Shown here: in pieces, positions 1,695-8,485 of the stretch
Layout of the letters: the number at the start of each line of letters is the position of its first letter
Numbering within the stretch: the first letter of the stretch is position 1
From: Planctomycetota bacterium
GTDB lineage: Bacteria > Planctomycetota > Phycisphaerae > Phycisphaerales > SM1A02
Reading direction: 5' to 3'
Assembly (NCBI GenBank): GCA_017859745.1
Contig: JAFMML010000028.1
Coordinates: 1-40,520, forward strand
Length of the DNA: 40,520 nucleotides
Program-made: the position numbers and the translations under genes
The notes under the pieces: model-generated
Database searches by the model: none
What the model was told of the DNA's origin: nothing
What the model saw: only the letters and a program-made list of their open reading frames with translations

Positions 1695-4310
1695 TCATCC
1701 CGCTCGCCCGCCGGCGAGGAGCTCCACCGTGGAACGTCGCATCAGGCCGGCCGCGGCGGGAGCGCTCGCAAGCAGCGTGATCGCCACAAGCAGCAGGCAT
1801 CCGGCGGCCAGCGGCACGAGGGGAAGCACCCAGCCCAGCTCGATGCCGACGAGTTCCCGGTAGGCCCGCATGCCCATCCAGGCGAGGTGCATGCCCAACG
1901 CCATCCCGACGACCGAGGCGGTCGAAGCGACCAGCAGCGCCTCGGCGAGCACCAGGCGGGCGACGGTGCCGGGGCCGGCGCCCACCGCCCGCATCAGGCC
2001 GAACTCGAAGCGTCGCGACGCGATGCCCGCGGCGATCACGTTGCCGACGCCGAGCGCGGCGAGCAGCAGCGCTCCGCCGGCCACCGTGGCGGCCACCCCC
2101 AGCATCGTCGCCGAGACCCGATCGACGATCTCGCGAATGCCACGACCCGTCGCGAACACCGAGCCGGGCACCGCGGAGACGATCTCCTCGCCGAGGACGG
2201 CTTCGCCGGTCTCGCCGAGGTCGTCGGCGAGCGACAACTGCATGATGAAGGCCTCGCGAGTGCCGAAGTGCCGCGCGACCGCGTCGAAGTCCAGGAACAC
2301 GCAGCTGATCGCCTGCTCGTTGTAGAGGCTGCGCATGCCGAAGAACTGCGTGGCCATGTCGAGGCCCGCGGCACCGACGACGCCCACGATCTCGAACTCG
2401 ACCTCGCGGCGACTGTTGCCGAGGGTGATGCGGTCGCCGACGTCGACCCCTCGAGCGTTCAGAAACGCCTCGGCAACGAGGACCGCATCGCCGTCGGCGA
2501 GGCGCGGCAAGGCCGTGTCCGCGGTGCCGCGGATCCACTCGAGACGGTTCAGGCGCGTGAATCGCTCGGGATCGAACCCCACCGCGATCACGTTCGGAGG
2601 AGCGAGCCCCTCGATGCCGAAGACCTGCTGCCCCATGACCTCCAGGGGCATGTAGCCCACCGGACAGCTCTCGACGATGCCCGGCAGCGCCGCGATGCGA
2701 CGCTGCGCCTCGGGCGACAGGCCGTTGGCGCAGAACACGAAGCCGTCGGCGAACCGAAGTCGCTCCTGCAGGCTCCGTTCGAGCGCGACGCCGTTGCTCC
2801 AGGTGCTGACCAGGATCGACAGGCCGACCATGAGGGCACCGGCCGTGAATCCGAACCGGAACGGCGTCGATCGCACCGAGCCCTCGAGCACGCCACCGGG
2901 CAGGCCGAGGAGGCGGCCGATCGGGCCCGCGGCGACGCTGGCGACGACCGTGAAGATCGGCGGCGCGAGCAGAAACCACCCCACATGCAGGAGCGGCATG
3001 CCCACGAAGCTGTAGACGAGGAACCGCTCGTCCCGTCCGGGCACCAGCAGCAGCAGCAACTGTGCCGCGATGGCGGCTGCCCCCGCCGCGGCGCAGAGCA
3101 GCATCATTCCGGGGCGGGGCGTGCGTGCCCGGACCCGCATCGCCTCGAGCGGCGGGACCCGGCTGGCCTGCACCGCCGGCCAGGCCGCACCGATCAACCC
3201 CGCCCCGATGGAGCCGCCGACCGCAAGCAGGATGCCGTAGGGCGGGACCACGAGGCCTGCGGTCAGGATGTCCGGTGCCGCCATCGGGGCGAGTGCAGCG
3301 ATGCCGATGCCGAGCGGGACACCGAGGACGCCCCCGATCGCGCCCAGAGTCGCGCCGGCGAGCAGTTGCCCGATCAGCAGGGACCGGCGGCGGCCCCCGA
3401 TGCAGCGGGCGATCGCCAGCAGGCGCTGCTGCTCGACGACGGCGGTGGTCATGCCCGTGGCCACGATGAAGCTGCAGGACAGGAACGCCAGCATCGAACC
3501 GAGAGTCAGGCCGAGGCGGGTGCCGGCGACGGTGCGATCGAAGCCTCCTCGGATCCGCTCCGACGGCTCCACCACGAGGTCCTCCTCGGAGGCAAGCAGG
3601 ACCTGCCGGTCCTCGCACCAGGTCCCCACGTCGAGGCCCTCCTCGAGAATCAGCGAGATCGCGGTCAGACGTCCCTCGGCGCCGATCGCCTCGCCGAGGG
3701 TGCCGCGGTCGAGGTGACCTGTGGGCCGCTGCAGCGCGCCGAGTATCGGTCGCTTCTGGATGCCCACGATCTCGAGTTCGATCGGATCGCCGAAGCGCTG
3801 GACCTCGAGACGATCCCCGAGCGAGACCTGCATGCGCTCGGCGGTCAGCGGATCGACCACGAGTTCGCCGGGCGCCCTGGGCAGCCGCCCTGCCACGAAC
3901 TCCAGCTGATCGAACCGTTCGGCGTTGGCCAGATCGAACCCCCGACACTCGATGGTGGTGCGGCGAACGCGTCCGTCCTCGTCTCGCCGCCCGTCGGCAT
4001 GGACGAGGGTCAGCGATCCACGGAGCCGGCCACCGGCGGCCTCGACCCCGGGCCAGCGTCGCACGTCCTCGACGAGGCTCGAATCGAAGTCGGCGCCGAA
4101 CTGATGCGCGACGATCGCATCGGTGGTGCCGATCGACCGATCGATTCGTCCCTCGACCGCCTTCTGCCCGGAGGAGACGAGCGACACCACCACGACCACG
4201 AGGGCCGAGGACAGAAGGATGGCCGCGACGAGCAGCGTGGACCTAAGCCGGCGGCCGAGCAAGCTCAGCCGCACGAACGGCCACGCGGCCCGCATCCATC
4301 CCATCGACAT
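1695..4310 (-). CDS. FtsX-like ABC transporter permease (MacB/LolC-type, duplicated)
   Basis: This 871-residue inner-membrane protein has the layout of mechanotransmission-type (type VII) ABC permeases. There is an N-terminal membrane helix (about residues 22-46), a periplasmic domain (about 50-255), a block of three helices with FtsX character (about 265-375), more helices around 400-450, a second periplasmic domain (about 500-720) and a final three-helix FtsX block (about 730-865). It therefore looks like two fused permease halves in one chain. It overlaps the ATPase gene by 68 bases, so translation is likely coupled; later in-frame ATGs at 4304 and 4295 would shorten the overlap and are plausible starts. 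Such systems act on lipoproteins, lipids, peptides or macrolides rather than in ordinary import. No MacA-like adaptor lies nearby, so the substrate cannot be named. Confidence 0.9.
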
Positions 4311-5046
4311 CGAACGCTCCCGCGAGGATTCCGTCTCGAAGCACGTGGACCCGGCTGCACCTCGCGGCGGCGCTGGGCTCGTGCGTGACCATCAGCACCA
4401 GCATTCGCCGCTCCGAGGCGATCCGGTTCAGCAGTTCCCACAACCGCGTGCTGGTGGCGCTGTCGAGGTTGCCGGTGGGCTCGTCGGCGAAGAGGACCGG
4501 TGGATCGAAGAACAGGGCGCGGGCGATCGCGACGCGCTGCTGCTCGCCGCCGCTGAGCGCGTCGGGACGGTGGTGGCCGCGATCACCCAGTCCCAGCTGG
4601 TCGAGCAGGGTGGTCGCCCGCTCGATCAGGTCGGCCTCCCGGCCGCCGTCGAGACGGCCCGGCAGCATGACGTTGTCGAGCGCCGTCAGGGTGGGAAGCA
4701 GGTTGAACTGTTGAAAGACGATGCCGATGTCGCGTCGGCGGTAGTTGGTCAGCGCGGACTCGTCGAGGCGGTCGATCCGGCGGCCGGCCACCTCGATCTC
4801 GCCTCCGTCGGCGAGATCGAGTCCGGCAAGCAGATGGAGCAGGGTCGTCTTTCCGCTTCCGGACGGCCCCATGACCGCATGAAACCCCGGGCCGCGGATG
4901 TCCAGGTCGAGTCCCCGAATCGCCTCGACGGTGCGGGGGCCGCTTCGGTAGGTCTTCCGAAGGCCCCGAACTCGAACATGGTCCGACGACGGGGCGTGGC
5001 CTGCGAGGTCGGCTCCCGGCGAAGGTGGAGCCTCGCGTTCAGGCAC
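4243..5046 (-). CDS. ABC transporter ATP-binding protein, LolD/MacB type
   Basis: This is a 267-residue ATPase that should power the FtsX-like permease encoded downstream. All nucleotide-binding motifs are intact: Walker A GPSGSGKTT, Q-loop VFQQFNLLPTLTALDNV (typical of the LolD/MacB/FtsE class), signature LSGGEQQRVAIARAL, Walker B VLFADEPTGNLD and H-loop VTHE. I chose the GTG at 5046, whose codon overlaps the end of gcvH (GTGCCTGA), because the reading frame further upstream lies inside gcvH. This leaves a 33-residue non-conserved leader before the ATPase fold begins. The stop codon (TAG) lies inside the permease gene. The overlaps on both sides suggest a single transcript with gcvH and uvrB. 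Confidence 0.93.
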   Translation of the reverse strand: MPEREAPPSPGADLAGHAPSSDHVRVRGLRKTYRSGPRTVEAIRGLDLDIRGPGFHAVMGPSGSGKTTLLHLLAGLDLADGGEIEVAGRRIDRLDESALTNYRRRDIGIVFQQFNLLPTLTALDNVMLPGRLDGGREADLIERATTLLDQLGLGDRGHHRPDALSGGEQQRVAIARALFFDPPVLFADEPTGNLDSATSTRLWELLNRIASERRMLVLMVTHEPSAAARCSRVHVLRDGILAGAFDVDGMDAGRVAVRAAELARPPA

Positions 5047-5422
5047 CCGAGATGCTCTGGTCGTAGGACGCCGCATCCATGAGGGCTTCCAGCGGCGTCG
5101 CGTCCCCGGTGCGGATGCGAACCATCCAGCCGTCGCCATAAGGGTCGGTGTTGATCAGCGACGGATCGCCCGAGATGGCGTCGTTGACCTCGACGATCTC
5201 GCCCGCGATCGCGGAGTAGATGTCGCTGGTGGTCTTGACCGACTCCACTTCACCCACTCCGCCTCCGACCTCGATGGCCGTGCCGACCGGTCGCATCTCC
5301 GCGTAGGTCACGTCGGTCAACTGGTCTGCCGCGAACTGGGTGATGCCCATCGTGACGACGTCGCCATCGACGCGGAACCACTCGTGAGACTCCGAATAGC
5401 GCAGATCTGCGGGGCTGGACAT
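5039..5422 (-). CDS. gcvH: Glycine cleavage system H protein
   Basis: GcvH is the lipoyl carrier that shuttles the aminomethyl group between the P, T and L proteins of the glycine cleavage complex. The 127-residue product has the usual family length. It has the N-terminal YSESHEWFRVDGD segment, GITQFAADQLTDV, and the lipoyl attachment loop VGEVESVKTTSD with lysine 63 as the modified residue. The C-terminal segment INTDPYGDGWMVRI is also typical. The ATG at 5422 was chosen for its match to family length; the open frame continues upstream without conserved sequence. No gcvT or gcvP is in the window, and the next genes downstream are an ABC transporter and uvrB. The protein could therefore serve a remote gcv set or act as a lipoate carrier. 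Confidence 0.95.
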   Translation of the reverse strand: MSSPADLRYSESHEWFRVDGDVVTMGITQFAADQLTDVTYAEMRPVGTAIEVGGGVGEVESVKTTSDIYSAIAGEIVEVNDAISGDPSLINTDPYGDGWMVRIRTGDATPLEALMDAASYDQSISGA

Positions 5423-5635
5423 GGTGTAGGAACCGATGCGGGGTGCGATCTTGGAAGGCGAAGGGGCGGATGATACTCGTCCGGAGCGCGGGCCTCGTCT
5501 GGTCCAGGGACAGCGAGACGAGTTGGATGGTCGAGGCGGAGTGTCGACCTCGCTGCGGCGTGGGGGATCGAACATTCGGCATGGTGCGGCGCGGGGCCGC
5601 AGGGCCCTGACCGGCGGCCTCGCATGACCCAACGA
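5423..5635. other. Leader region upstream of gcvH, no gene seen
   Basis: No open frame here has codon content or similarity that I trust. On the minus strand it contains a short hairpin with arms GGTCGA and TCGACC (5529-5549), about 110 bases upstream of the gcvH start. I looked for a glycine riboswitch and did not find its conserved elements. Confidence 0.4.
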
Positions 5636-5666
5636 GAAAGCGTCCGCCGAGTGGACGGACGCTTTC
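5636..5666 (-). terminator. Terminator-like hairpin at the end of the structured RNA region
   Basis: An 11-base-pair stem (arms GAAAGCGTCCG and CGGACGCTTTC) extends by two more G-C pairs past a one-base bulge and closes on a four-base loop. Read on the minus strand it is followed by TCTCGTT, a weak pyrimidine tract; read on plus it is followed by a purine-rich stretch. This favours termination of a minus-strand transcript just upstream of gcvH. Confidence 0.45.
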
Positions 5667-5986
5667 CGGAGGGGAGAAAGATGCTTGACTGAAGACGCGT
5701 GGCTGGATGTCGCCTGAGGTCGCTCGGGCGTCCTGTTCTGGAATCACCCGTCTCGCTGCCCAACTCAGCTCGGACAGCATGTTCAGGCCGCTTGTTGGTC
5801 AATCGCGTGACCCCAAACAACCTGTCCGAAGGCAGGAACGCAGATTGGGCAAACCACCCTGCTTCTCGGACCTCGGAAGACTACCAATCTTGCCCAGTTT
5901 CGCAACTGCACTGACCAGATCCTCACGATTCGACCCAGTCGTGGGGTCTCCGAGGCGTCGCCGTTGGACCCCAAGCGTGAACTGGG
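5636..5986 (-). ncRNA. Candidate structured RNA of about 350 nucleotides, family unassigned
   Basis: This stretch looks less GC-rich than its surroundings, contains no convincing protein gene and carries a run of hairpins. These are 5725-5750 (CGGGT/GCCCG), 5755-5778 (GCTGTCC/GGGCAGC), 5792-5820 (TTGTT..GGTC/GACC..AACAA), 5821-5836 (a C(UUCG)G tetraloop), 5846-5896 (TGGGCAA/TTGCCCA) and 5924-5943 (CACGA/TCGTG). An alternative nested stem lies at 5934-5986 (CCCAGT..GGGGTC/GACCCC..ACTGGG). The terminator-like hairpin 5636-5666 closes the series. The UUCG loop forms only in the minus-strand RNA, and G-U pairs complete two stems only on that strand, although one further wobble would favour plus. 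I could not match it to tmRNA, RNase P RNA, 6S RNA, SRP RNA or a glycine riboswitch. Exact ends are unknown. Confidence 0.4.
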
Positions 5987-6270
5987 GGCCTCCGCATCAC
6001 CCTCTCGTTCGCTGCCGCTGCGGGTCGGTTCACTTGGCCAGGCGCTCGCGGCCGCTCGAGCATCGGCGGCCTGCGGCCGGTGCGCCCGGCACGGGTGCCT
6101 GAATCGAGATGATCCGCCCGGTAGACTTCGCGACGCTGTACTGCCATCCGCACGCCGGGGTGCCCTCGTCTGTCCTTCAAGAGGCGCGATTCGGCGGGAG
6201 GACGAGCGTCCCGCCCGCAGCCTCGAACCACCCTCGTCCTACGGAATCGCCCACCTTGCAGGCCCCGATC
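5987..6270. other. Intergenic region upstream of the TIM-barrel gene, no gene seen
   Basis: The plus-strand frame of the downstream gene stays open back to about 6109, but that part lacks conserved features and reads like non-coding sequence. No clear sigma-70 promoter was found on either strand. The promoter of the minus-strand RNA candidate and that of the downstream plus-strand operon would both have to lie here. Confidence 0.4.
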
Positions 6271-7074
6271 ATGCTGATCCTCGAAGCCGGAAGTCTGGCT
6301 TCGATGCTGGTGGGCGGAGGTCGCAAGACTGCGAGTCTGCAGTTGTGGGACATCCCCTCGGTGGCGATCGAAGATCTGGGTCTCCGCGGCCTGTCGATCC
6401 CGGCGTCACTGCTGGCGGGGCGGTCGATGCGGGATCTCGACCGCCTTCGCGATGCGGCCGACAAGACCGGTTGTCCGTGTCTGGTCCTCAGGGACGAGAC
6501 GCCGTTGGCATTCGGAAGCCCGCGAGCGGGGGCCGGCGAGGCGGCCATGGATCGACTGCAGCGGCTCGCCACGGCCGCGTCGCACCTCGGTTGCAGCAGT
6601 CTGGCGATCGCCTGCGAGGACCACCTTGGAGACTCCGACGCCTTTGCGGCGGCGGTGCGAGAGGGGGTGAAGCTGGTCGAGCGTCGGGAGCTCAACTTCC
6701 TGCTGACCCCCGGTGGCCGATCCATCGATGGCGCGGATTCGGTGATCGAGTTGATTCGCGCCGTAGGAGGATTTCGAATCGGGTGCATGCCGACCTTCGC
6801 CCACGCGATGGGGACCTCCGATCCCGAGGGCACGCTGCGGCGTCTCGCGCCGTACGCCTCGGCCATGCTCGGTGAACTCGAGGCCGTGAAGACGAAGCGG
6901 GGAGAAGACGCCGATGCGCTCGTCGCCACGTGGATTCGCGCGGTCCGAGCGGTCGGGTTCGCCAGCACGCTCGCCCTCGGCGCCGCAGGTCGCTCGCCGA
7001 TCAAGCGAATCGCCAGCGCCCGCGAGCATCTCGAGCAGGCGATGGCGGCGTCGGTCGAGGAAGAAGGCGAGTGA
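6271..7074 (+). CDS. Xylose isomerase-like TIM-barrel protein (sugar phosphate isomerase/epimerase family)
   Basis: The 267-residue product shows the alternating strand-helix pattern of AP endonuclease 2/xylose isomerase-like TIM barrels: a strand carrying a conserved acidic residue (LAIACEDH), another strand near RRELNFLLTPGG, and a third near FRIGCMPTFAHAMG. I do not see the full metal-binding Glu/His/Asp set of characterised isomerases, so catalytic function is uncertain. The start at 6271 follows ribosome-binding-like purines weakly; the frame is open upstream, but the fold begins close to this ATG. Its last codon overlaps the GTG start of cmk (GTGA), so the two are translationally coupled. 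It heads a four-gene operon of nucleotide, lipid and RNA enzymes. Confidence 0.65.
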   Translation: MLILEAGSLASMLVGGGRKTASLQLWDIPSVAIEDLGLRGLSIPASLLAGRSMRDLDRLRDAADKTGCPCLVLRDETPLAFGSPRAGAGEAAMDRLQRLATAASHLGCSSLAIACEDHLGDSDAFAAAVREGVKLVERRELNFLLTPGGRSIDGADSVIELIRAVGGFRIGCMPTFAHAMGTSDPEGTLRRLAPYASAMLGELEAVKTKRGEDADALVATWIRAVRAVGFASTLALGAAGRSPIKRIASAREHLEQAMAASVEEEGE

Positions 7075-7781
7075 GTCCCGCAGCGCCGAGCGTGGTCGTC
7101 ACCATCGACGGGCCCGCCGGCAGCGGCAAGTCGTCGGCCGCGGAGGCGCTGGCAGGTCGTCTGGGATGGCAGGTGCTCGACACGGGGGCGATGTATCGCG
7201 CGGCCGGTGTTCTTGCGTTGGAGCGAGGCGTCGATCCTTCGAACGGGCCCGCGGTGGCGGCGGTCCTGCGGCAGAGCGTGATCGACTTCGACTGGTCGAG
7301 CTCTCCGCCAGAGATCCGTCTCGACGGTCGGCCGATCGGCGAGGCGATTCGATCGCCCGCGGCGACCGCCGCAGCCTCCGCGGTGGCGCCGCATCCCGAG
7401 GTCCGGGCGTGCCTGGTGGAGTCGCAGCGGAGAATCGCCGCCGAGCATCCCCGGCTGGTCAGCGAGGGCCGGGATCAGGGGTCGTTGGTCTTTCCCGACG
7501 CGCTGGTTCGGTTCTATCTCGACGCTCCGGTCGAGGAACGAGCGAGACGTCGAGTCCGCCAATGGGAGGCCGAGGGTCGGATCGTCGAACTCGCCGACGT
7601 CGAGCAGGCGATTCGCGAGCGGGACCGCCTCGACGAACATCGCGAGGTCGGACCGCTCCGACGCCCCGAGGCCGGCGTCGAGCTCGAGACCGGCTCGCTC
7701 GATCTCGAACAGGTGGTCGATCGCCTCGAGTCCACGGTTCGCGAGGCGATGGCCGAGCACCGGATCGTCGCCGAGGCATGA
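7071..7781 (+). CDS. cmk: Cytidylate kinase
   Basis: Cytidylate kinase phosphorylates CMP and dCMP with ATP in pyrimidine nucleotide recycling. The 236-residue protein has the P-loop GPAGSGKSS near residue 14, the substrate motif DTGAMYRAA, the SEGRDQGSLVFPDA strand (usually GRDIGTVVFPDA in the family) and the lid/NMP segment RDRLDEHREVGPLRRPEAG, a variant of the usual RDxxDxxRxxxPL. The start is a GTG whose bases overlap the preceding stop codon, and its stop overlaps the ATG of the acyltransferase gene (ATGA). A cmk followed by a plsC-like gene is a common bacterial arrangement, which supports the call. Confidence 0.93.
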   Translation: MSPAAPSVVVTIDGPAGSGKSSAAEALAGRLGWQVLDTGAMYRAAGVLALERGVDPSNGPAVAAVLRQSVIDFDWSSSPPEIRLDGRPIGEAIRSPAATAAASAVAPHPEVRACLVESQRRIAAEHPRLVSEGRDQGSLVFPDALVRFYLDAPVEERARRRVRQWEAEGRIVELADVEQAIRERDRLDEHREVGPLRRPEAGVELETGSLDLEQVVDRLESTVREAMAEHRIVAEA

Positions 7782-8485
7782 GCGAGTCGCGTCGCTGGTG
7801 GCAGTTTCGACGGCGGGTGCCGGGCCGGTCGATCCCCGCGATCATCTGGTTCGGAGTCTGCCGAACGATCGTCGCGGTCACGCTGCGGGCGTTCTACCGC
7901 TACCGCGTCCTCGACCGGCGACGCATTCCGGCGTCGGGGCCGGTGCTGGTGGTGGCGAACCACGAGTCGTTTCTCGATCCGCTGCTCGTCGGATCGGCGA
8001 TGAGCGACCGCCAGTTCTCTCCACTGGCGAGGGACTCGCTGTTCCGATTCGGTCCCTTTGGGGCGCTGTTGCGAAGCTACGGCTGCATCCCGGTACGACG
8101 CGAGGGCGGCGACGCGGCCGCGATGCGGGCGACGATCGGGGAGTTGAAGGCGGGCCGCTGCGTGGCGGTCTTCCCGGAGGGCACCCGCTCATCCGACGGG
8201 CGGATGCTGCCGTTTCGGCGGGGGGTCCTGTTGATGCTGGGCCGGGTCGACTGCCTCGTGGTGCCGATGGGGGTCGCCGGGACCTTCGAGGTCTGGCCCA
8301 AGGGACGGTCCCGCCCGCGATGGCGGGGCCGCACCACCGTCGCGGTTGGCGAGTCGATTCCTTCGACCACCCTCCGCGAGTTGCCGGCCGACGAGGCCAT
8401 CGCCGTTCTCGAGTCGGCCGTCCGGGCTCAAGTCGATCGAGCCCGTCCGGTCTCCGGTCTCCCGGCACGCGGGATCGACCGGTAG
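7778..8485 (+). CDS. 1-acyl-sn-glycerol-3-phosphate acyltransferase (PlsC family)
   Basis: This 235-residue acyltransferase probably makes phosphatidic acid by adding the second acyl chain to lysophosphatidate. It has an N-terminal hydrophobic segment (about residues 20-38) that would anchor it to the inner membrane. The catalytic motif NHESFLDP (HX4D) is followed by the glycerophosphate-binding motif FPEGTRSSDG and a later VVPMGVAGT segment, all in the expected order and spacing. The start ATG overlaps the cmk stop. A role in acylating a different lipid cannot be excluded from sequence alone. Confidence 0.9.
   Translation: MSESRRWWQFRRRVPGRSIPAIIWFGVCRTIVAVTLRAFYRYRVLDRRRIPASGPVLVVANHESFLDPLLVGSAMSDRQFSPLARDSLFRFGPFGALLRSYGCIPVRREGGDAAAMRATIGELKAGRCVAVFPEGTRSSDGRMLPFRRGVLLMLGRVDCLVVPMGVAGTFEVWPKGRSRPRWRGRTTVAVGESIPSTTLRELPADEAIAVLESAVRAQVDRARPVSGLPARGIDR

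Follow-up and report, generated by a model that had tools for sequence, protein, structure and literature searches.

Small RNAs (sRNAs) that pair with mRNAs through cytidine-rich regions, the proven cases involving the Shine–Dalgarno sequence, are known from the Firmicutes. In B. subtilis and the staphylococci, RoxS/RsaE and FsrA pair with mRNAs through C-rich regions, RoxS with Shine–Dalgarno sequences, in hosts where Hfq has no global role (PMC8216469). FsrA needs small helper proteins, and IsrR of Staphylococcus aureus combines single-stranded C-rich regions with a terminator and a modelled pairing to Shine–Dalgarno sequences and start codons (PMC9410917). Neisseria reportedly carries two sibling sRNAs per genome, whose anti-Shine–Dalgarno seeds have a common pairing sequence (PMC5362039). 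Closer in phylogeny, the Rhodopirellula-1 motif of Proteobacteria and Planctomycetes is listed by Weinberg 2010 in a row without an Rfam number (PMC2864571). Among the matches listed in the literature on sRNAs in Phycisphaerae or Planctomycetes, no regulatory RNA of Phycisphaerae is described, nor does the present one appear.

The RNA considered here is encoded in a 40,520-nucleotide stretch of DNA from a member of the Phycisphaerae, hereafter the window. It resembles RoxS/RsaE and FsrA in being C-rich, in its proposed pairing with mRNAs and in its apparent independence of Hfq; it differs in that they have more than one C-rich region, other folds and proven targets and belong to the Firmicutes, with no Rfam-level homology found. 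Descent from RoxS/RsaE or IsrR yielded no Rfam match in the window or in 20 related loci, a result that holds insofar as Rfam models those RNAs. IsrR has three C-rich regions, is controlled by Fur and bears a poorly conserved terminator, whereas the Phycisphaerae RNA has a single seed directly before a covarying terminator. As in the Neisseria siblings, two sRNAs per genome carry one pairing sequence. These siblings are reportedly near-copies lying side by side; the two Phycisphaerae genes, unlike them, have only their tip in common and reside on different contigs. By the Rfam search, the RNA looks like a new family of a known kind.

The first-pass annotation had singled out an unassigned, minus-strand structured RNA upstream of gcvH, in a gene-free stretch poorer in G+C than its surroundings, with six successive hairpins, one of them closed by a C(UUCG)G loop, and a terminator-like stem. 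The setting was borne out. No gene was seen between gcvH (glycine cleavage H protein; 5042..5422, minus strand; Pfam GCV_H, E 1.6e-39) and the divergent TIM-barrel gene (6256..7071, plus strand; PF01261, E 3.6e-6, below the curated cut-off), with mechanically called open reading frames (ORFs) overlapping the stretch, and G+C is 0.59–0.60 in 5700–5999 versus 0.635–0.73 in the remaining intervals of 4000–8000. The minus strand of 5996–5636 folds better than its dinucleotide shuffles (z −3.16, 0/100 equal), with a weaker signal on the plus strand (z −1.94, 4/100 equal). The covariance-model search that the annotation had proposed gave no match at gathering score anywhere in the window, where four lay far below the cut-off at E up to 10, and in the 20 related loci gave only one tRNA; ARAGORN and Rfam found no tRNA or tmRNA in the window. 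The alternative of a divergent house-keeping RNA is disfavored by these null results, by a conserved part that consists of a 15-base seed plus a terminator, and by the several matches that some genomes carry.

The hairpins fared less well than their setting. The C(UUCG)G hairpin is absent from the minimum-energy folds, its bases pairing elsewhere. When a 391-base query was compared by blastn with 61 genomes, 18 matched, its own included, and all alignments to other genomes were confined to query bases 323–380 (window 5688–5631), so conservation does not extend over the six hairpins as a unit. A single structured RNA spanning the 361-base region was rejected, conservation being limited to its last part.

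That last part is a compact core of 52 bases (5631..5682, minus strand), matched by the covariance models R1 (E 2.1e-15) and R2 (E 5.6e-14), the window sequence being among those from which both were built. It opens with an unpaired seed, AUCUUUCUCCCCUCC (5668..5682, minus strand), complementary to GGAGG-type Shine–Dalgarno sequences, and closes with an intrinsic terminator hairpin (5636..5666, minus strand) identified by covariation and a terminator scan. The terminator-like stem of the first-pass annotation is thus real: 13 pairs join 5666–5654 to 5648–5636 around a loop of 5 (5653–5649), and the scan gave it as its sole terminator-like match, with 0.4 expected from shuffles. Many relatives have a better T-tract behind it than the window, where it is poor (TCGTTGGG). 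The first 18 sequences have 20 identical bases in common, AUCUUUCUCCCCUCCGGAAA, followed by the covarying stem, and all 18 contain the identical seed. The CCCC and UCC letters hardly vary among 89 members of the class, and CUCCCCUCCGGAA or UUUCCCCUCCGGAA persists almost without change in stronger members from several of its other families. The 5′ side of the seed drifts between families (UUUCUCCCC, UUUUCUCCCC, CUUCUUUCCCC) around a constant CCCCUCC; in all members seen, the seed adjoins the hairpin.

Covariation in related genomes, the second check that had been proposed, is extensive. All 13 stem pairs have changed on both sides in the 89 members, with 99.0% of cells paired; shuffles reach 83.0%, and slid partners no more than 56.9%. 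The covariation score is 0.507 versus 0.201 in shuffles. These figures come from an alignment fitted to the covariance model, which leans towards structure; a MAFFT alignment of 18 family members has 99.6% of stem cells paired. The 89 members represent one per locus, from 89 loci chosen by hand; before counting, eight opposite-strand palindromic matches were dropped by lowering the E limit from 1e-3 to 1e-6. The stem cells include 73 G.U and 4 A.C oppositions, which places the pairing RNA on the minus strand, as two G-U-completed stems had suggested at first sight. A reading of the opposite strand takes GGAGGGGAGAAAG for the Shine–Dalgarno sequence of a small ORF, since an ATG directly follows the motif in the window and two genus mates. 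In the window, however, the frame stops after three codons (ATG CTT GAC TGA), the other 15 first-type sequences have AT without G or another base pattern at that place, and the G.U asymmetry and the T-tracts indicate the minus strand; this reading, scarcely credible, is to judge from the sequence already contradicted.

Upstream of the core, a candidate promoter, TTGCGA-N16-TAGTCT (5878..5905, minus strand), overlaps the box GGGCAAGATtGGTA in a layout common to two genus mates (TTGCCA-N16-TAACAT and TTGCGA-N16-TAACCT). A sigma-70 promoter scan of the window found none, these candidate boxes being too far from consensus. Across the family, 23 of 25 loci have the pattern TTGN3-N16/17-TAN3T no more than 150 nt from the seed, versus 6.8% of 1000 shuffles; the exceptions are L046, with none within 260 nt, and the window, whose copy lies beyond 150 nt, at 203. 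From the pattern to CCCCTCC there are 47–74 nt, but 34 and 24 in the genus mates. Members with an AAAACA stem have a different box pair, TAAAG-N15/16-GNCGA, in 48/70 loci versus 9/3500 shuffles; both sets of shuffles came from purpose-written scripts, those for the TAAAG boxes preserving single-base composition only. The AAAACA-member boxes resemble the FliA consensus, with a spacer two bases longer. A FliA (sigma-28) promoter is unsupported: TAAAG-N13-17-GCCGATAA gave 1–2 matches per genome versus 1–3 for the control in three genomes, none of them at the RNA, a weak test, as the pattern searched is not that of the boxes which the RNA itself carries in those genomes. By eye, a box like GGGAAAGATRGGTAAAATNTG stands about 35–37 nt before the −10 element in many family loci (L003–L019), with similar boxes near some copies of the second gene introduced below (L298, L299, L307); it is possible, on sequence likeness, that these are sites of a common regulator.

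Promoter-like boxes and an intrinsic terminator thus bracket the RNA in the family, and in the window the promoter is a candidate 203 nt upstream of the seed, versus 24–74 nt in relatives. Predicted RNAs are 64–113 nt long (median 89, n=24). Most begin with a hairpin and leave the seed open, its median unpaired probability being 0.765 over the 24. The predicted window transcript is an outlier of about 242 nt (5870 to about 5629) with a seed half paired (unpaired probability 0.51). Its candidate promoter sits about 150 bases further up, hence the extra hairpins seen there: those first noticed appear to be mostly a structured 5′ extension (5684..5870, minus strand) found so far only in this species. 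The 195 bases upstream of the core (5684–5878) fold with z −3.08, 2/200 shuffles equal, and blastn found the extension neither in 60 other genomes nor at a second place in its own. A repeat or mobile element as its source was rejected, there being only one match in the own genome. The extension, of about 150 nt, would have been added in this species, perhaps as a modulating domain.

The seed is not confined to this gene. The complement pattern GGAGGGGAGAAA occurs in all 25 family genomes searched, at 54 places (reversed control, 1/25). Thirty of these places were fetched: 10 belong to the first gene, 14 to a second gene and 6 to neither. In G034 and G167 the sole match is neither RNA, and their RNA has CUCUGG instead. 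In the second gene the tip stands before GCCCCGUUG-loop-CAACGGGGUUUUU, a terminator unrelated to that of the first gene. Twelve of the 14 second genes keep all 15 bases of AUCUUUCUCCCCUCC, and the remaining two read CUUUCUCCCCUCC; locus L260 was left out of the second-gene alignment. In each of three genus genomes CTTTCTCCCCTCC has exactly two exact copies, those of the window's own genome being the window itself and G000:C47:31207-31257 (minus strand), a second gene with the seed's 15 bases unchanged; the two genes are unlinked and on different contigs. L292 holds two second-type genes in tandem, 184 bases apart, with a nearly identical terminator and the tips CTTTCTCCCCTCC and TTTTCTCCCTCC. 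The occurrence of one run of bases ahead of two stems that are unrelated points to those bases, and not the sequence of the stem, as the working part.

This bears on the proposal that the element is a conserved transcription terminator only, in which the 15-mer would serve termination or 3′-end stability with no pairing role. Such a proposal accommodates the invariable contact of seed and hairpin in the members seen, as well as the hairpin's larger share of the conserved part. It is nonetheless unlikely, given that the tip is preserved before two unrelated terminators and that promoter-like boxes lie 24–74 nt upstream in most family loci. Besides, intrinsic terminators are not known to need an upstream CCCCUCC.

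Glycine cleavage genes often have riboswitches, and in the window's genus, g1 (the window, L002 and L004), the RNA shares the strand of gcvH, starts about 195–253 nt upstream of it and points towards it in all three genomes, with the TIM-barrel gene seen on its other side in two of the three. To this extent the first-pass description of a small RNA upstream of gcvH stood, and a cis-acting leader of gcvH, an attenuator or riboswitch, would account for it. Elsewhere the description failed: in 23 of 26 gcvH-matched loci the RNA points away from gcvH, the usual order being gcvH leftwards, RNA rightwards and TIM-barrel gene rightwards. Of the 28 loci with any neighbor match, 26 have a relative of the TIM-barrel gene beside the RNA, and the cassette of genus g1 is, by its gene order, an in-place inversion between the same two neighbors, so the RNA is hardly a gcvH leader. 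Other families have different neighbors, for example secA-like and ribonucleotide-reductase-like genes (named from reading the proteins), which together with the flipped cassette means that the gene is not bound to one cis target. With orientation weighing against it, no glycine riboswitch or other Rfam match in the window, and a conserved seed and terminator in which no conserved alternative fold was seen, a gcvH leader is very unlikely.

The family is widespread in its class. At E ≤0.001, with weak matches included, R1, the model of the core, matched 160 of the 298 genomes of the class, spread over 124 of 219 genera, and 119 of the family's 181, spread over 41 of 45 genera; many of the weaker class matches are the second gene, and many of the 119 family genomes rest on E of 1e-5 to 1e-3, partly from the second gene or opposite-strand palindromic matches. 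Some families reach up to five matches per genome. R3, the second-gene model, matched 51 genomes among the 298, in 43 of 219 genera; 42 of these genomes belong to the order, and the other nine matched weakly (best E 8.4e-5). In a phylum search of 392 genomes the wider model R2 matched 37, 26 of these in the class; the 11 outside it matched weakly (best E 1.8e-5), five from model position 17 only, one from 15 and five over the whole model. No match was found in several genomes of genus g36 (R1, R2, R3) or in three of family f18 (R2). A scan of named genomes gave at least 118 stretches with the seed. A hairpin filter (stem score at least 9, distinct sequence) kept 148 places; the hairpin-bearing records carried planctomycete names only among the matches listed, mostly Phycisphaerae, Phycisphaerales, Sedimentisphaerales or plain Planctomycetota, with one Planctomycetaceae and two Planctomycetales, and those in unrelated bacteria (e.g., Peribacillus), again among the matches listed, failed the filter.

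Absence of an Rfam match, class-wide conservation, covariation, strand asymmetry and upstream promoter-like boxes together support the new minus-strand small RNA that had been suggested, and such an RNA very probably exists at this locus. The seed and terminator core, the family's promoter-like boxes at a steady distance and the unlinked second gene can be read directly from the genomes. We favor, at a probability of roughly two in three, an independent, trans-acting minus-strand sRNA whose CU-rich seed pairs with Shine–Dalgarno sequences free of Hfq. Transcribed from the minus strand, the RNA would pair through its 15-mer with G-rich Shine–Dalgarno regions (GGAGGGG...) of a set of mRNAs and block binding of the 30S subunit, lowering their translation; that the seed pairs with such sites is likely. 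The pairing would proceed without Hfq, which (as PF17209) was found in none of 120 class genomes, with 5 of 14 control genomes matched. The two genes may answer different signals and have targets in common.

The seed is complementary to GGAGGGGAGAAAGAU, and GGAGG-N5-9-ATG occurs 588 times in the own genome versus 153 for the control, 3.8 times as often; such sites are therefore used, and available as targets. Sites for a 13-mer of the seed with at most two mismatches numbered 31, 31 and 49 in three genus genomes versus 23, 27 and 90 for the reversed control, the control exceeding the sites in G002. Among the matches listed there were 111 such places; of the 30 inspected, six were the RNAs themselves, and no gene was shared between genomes. 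Likewise, GGAGGGGA before ATG occurred at 50 places, of which the 14 inspected held no gene common to genus mates. These searches covered matches of 8–13 bases in three genus genomes, and pairings of 7–8 bases are not resolvable thus. G002 also contains GGAGGGGAGGTCCGATG at least 12 times among the matches listed, with about 10 close variants, on many contigs, as an interspersed repeat. At G000:C123 (L320), a 38-codon ORF that encodes a hydrophobic stretch has GGAGGAGAGAAAG immediately before its ATG and, judged by eye, is a candidate target. Within the RNA itself, six loci (L089, L103, L109, L125, L126, L129) have CGGAGG about 40–60 nt upstream of CCCCUCCGG; on complementarity, the upstream element could lock the RNA by pairing with its own seed.

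Conceivably, the CU-rich stretch binds a protein instead, titrating it, or acts as a decoy mimicking the 3′ end of 16S rRNA. The conservation exceeds the needs of a short pairing, up to five matches occur per genome in some families, and the inspected sites of the three genus genomes held no conserved mRNA target. Against this, there is no candidate protein, and a seed whose 5′ side drifts around a constant CCCCUCC is what pairing with a Shine–Dalgarno core would produce, so that a protein-binding or decoy RNA is improbable.

Under the preferred reading of a trans-acting sRNA, the retention of the pairing tip in many genera, ahead of two terminators that are unrelated to each other, points strongly to a shared regulon, which would lie in bacteria where no Hfq was found (120 class genomes). 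A more ambitious version, rather doubtful at present, is a class-wide, Hfq-free brake on translation, in which at least two unlinked sRNA genes with one anti-Shine–Dalgarno tip would compete with the 16S tail for all mRNAs with strong GGAGGG sites. If true, the cell would be switched between Shine–Dalgarno-led and Shine–Dalgarno-free translation, rather than single genes being regulated. The RNA provides a ready probe for sRNA work in the class, and its covariance model can annotate many genomes.
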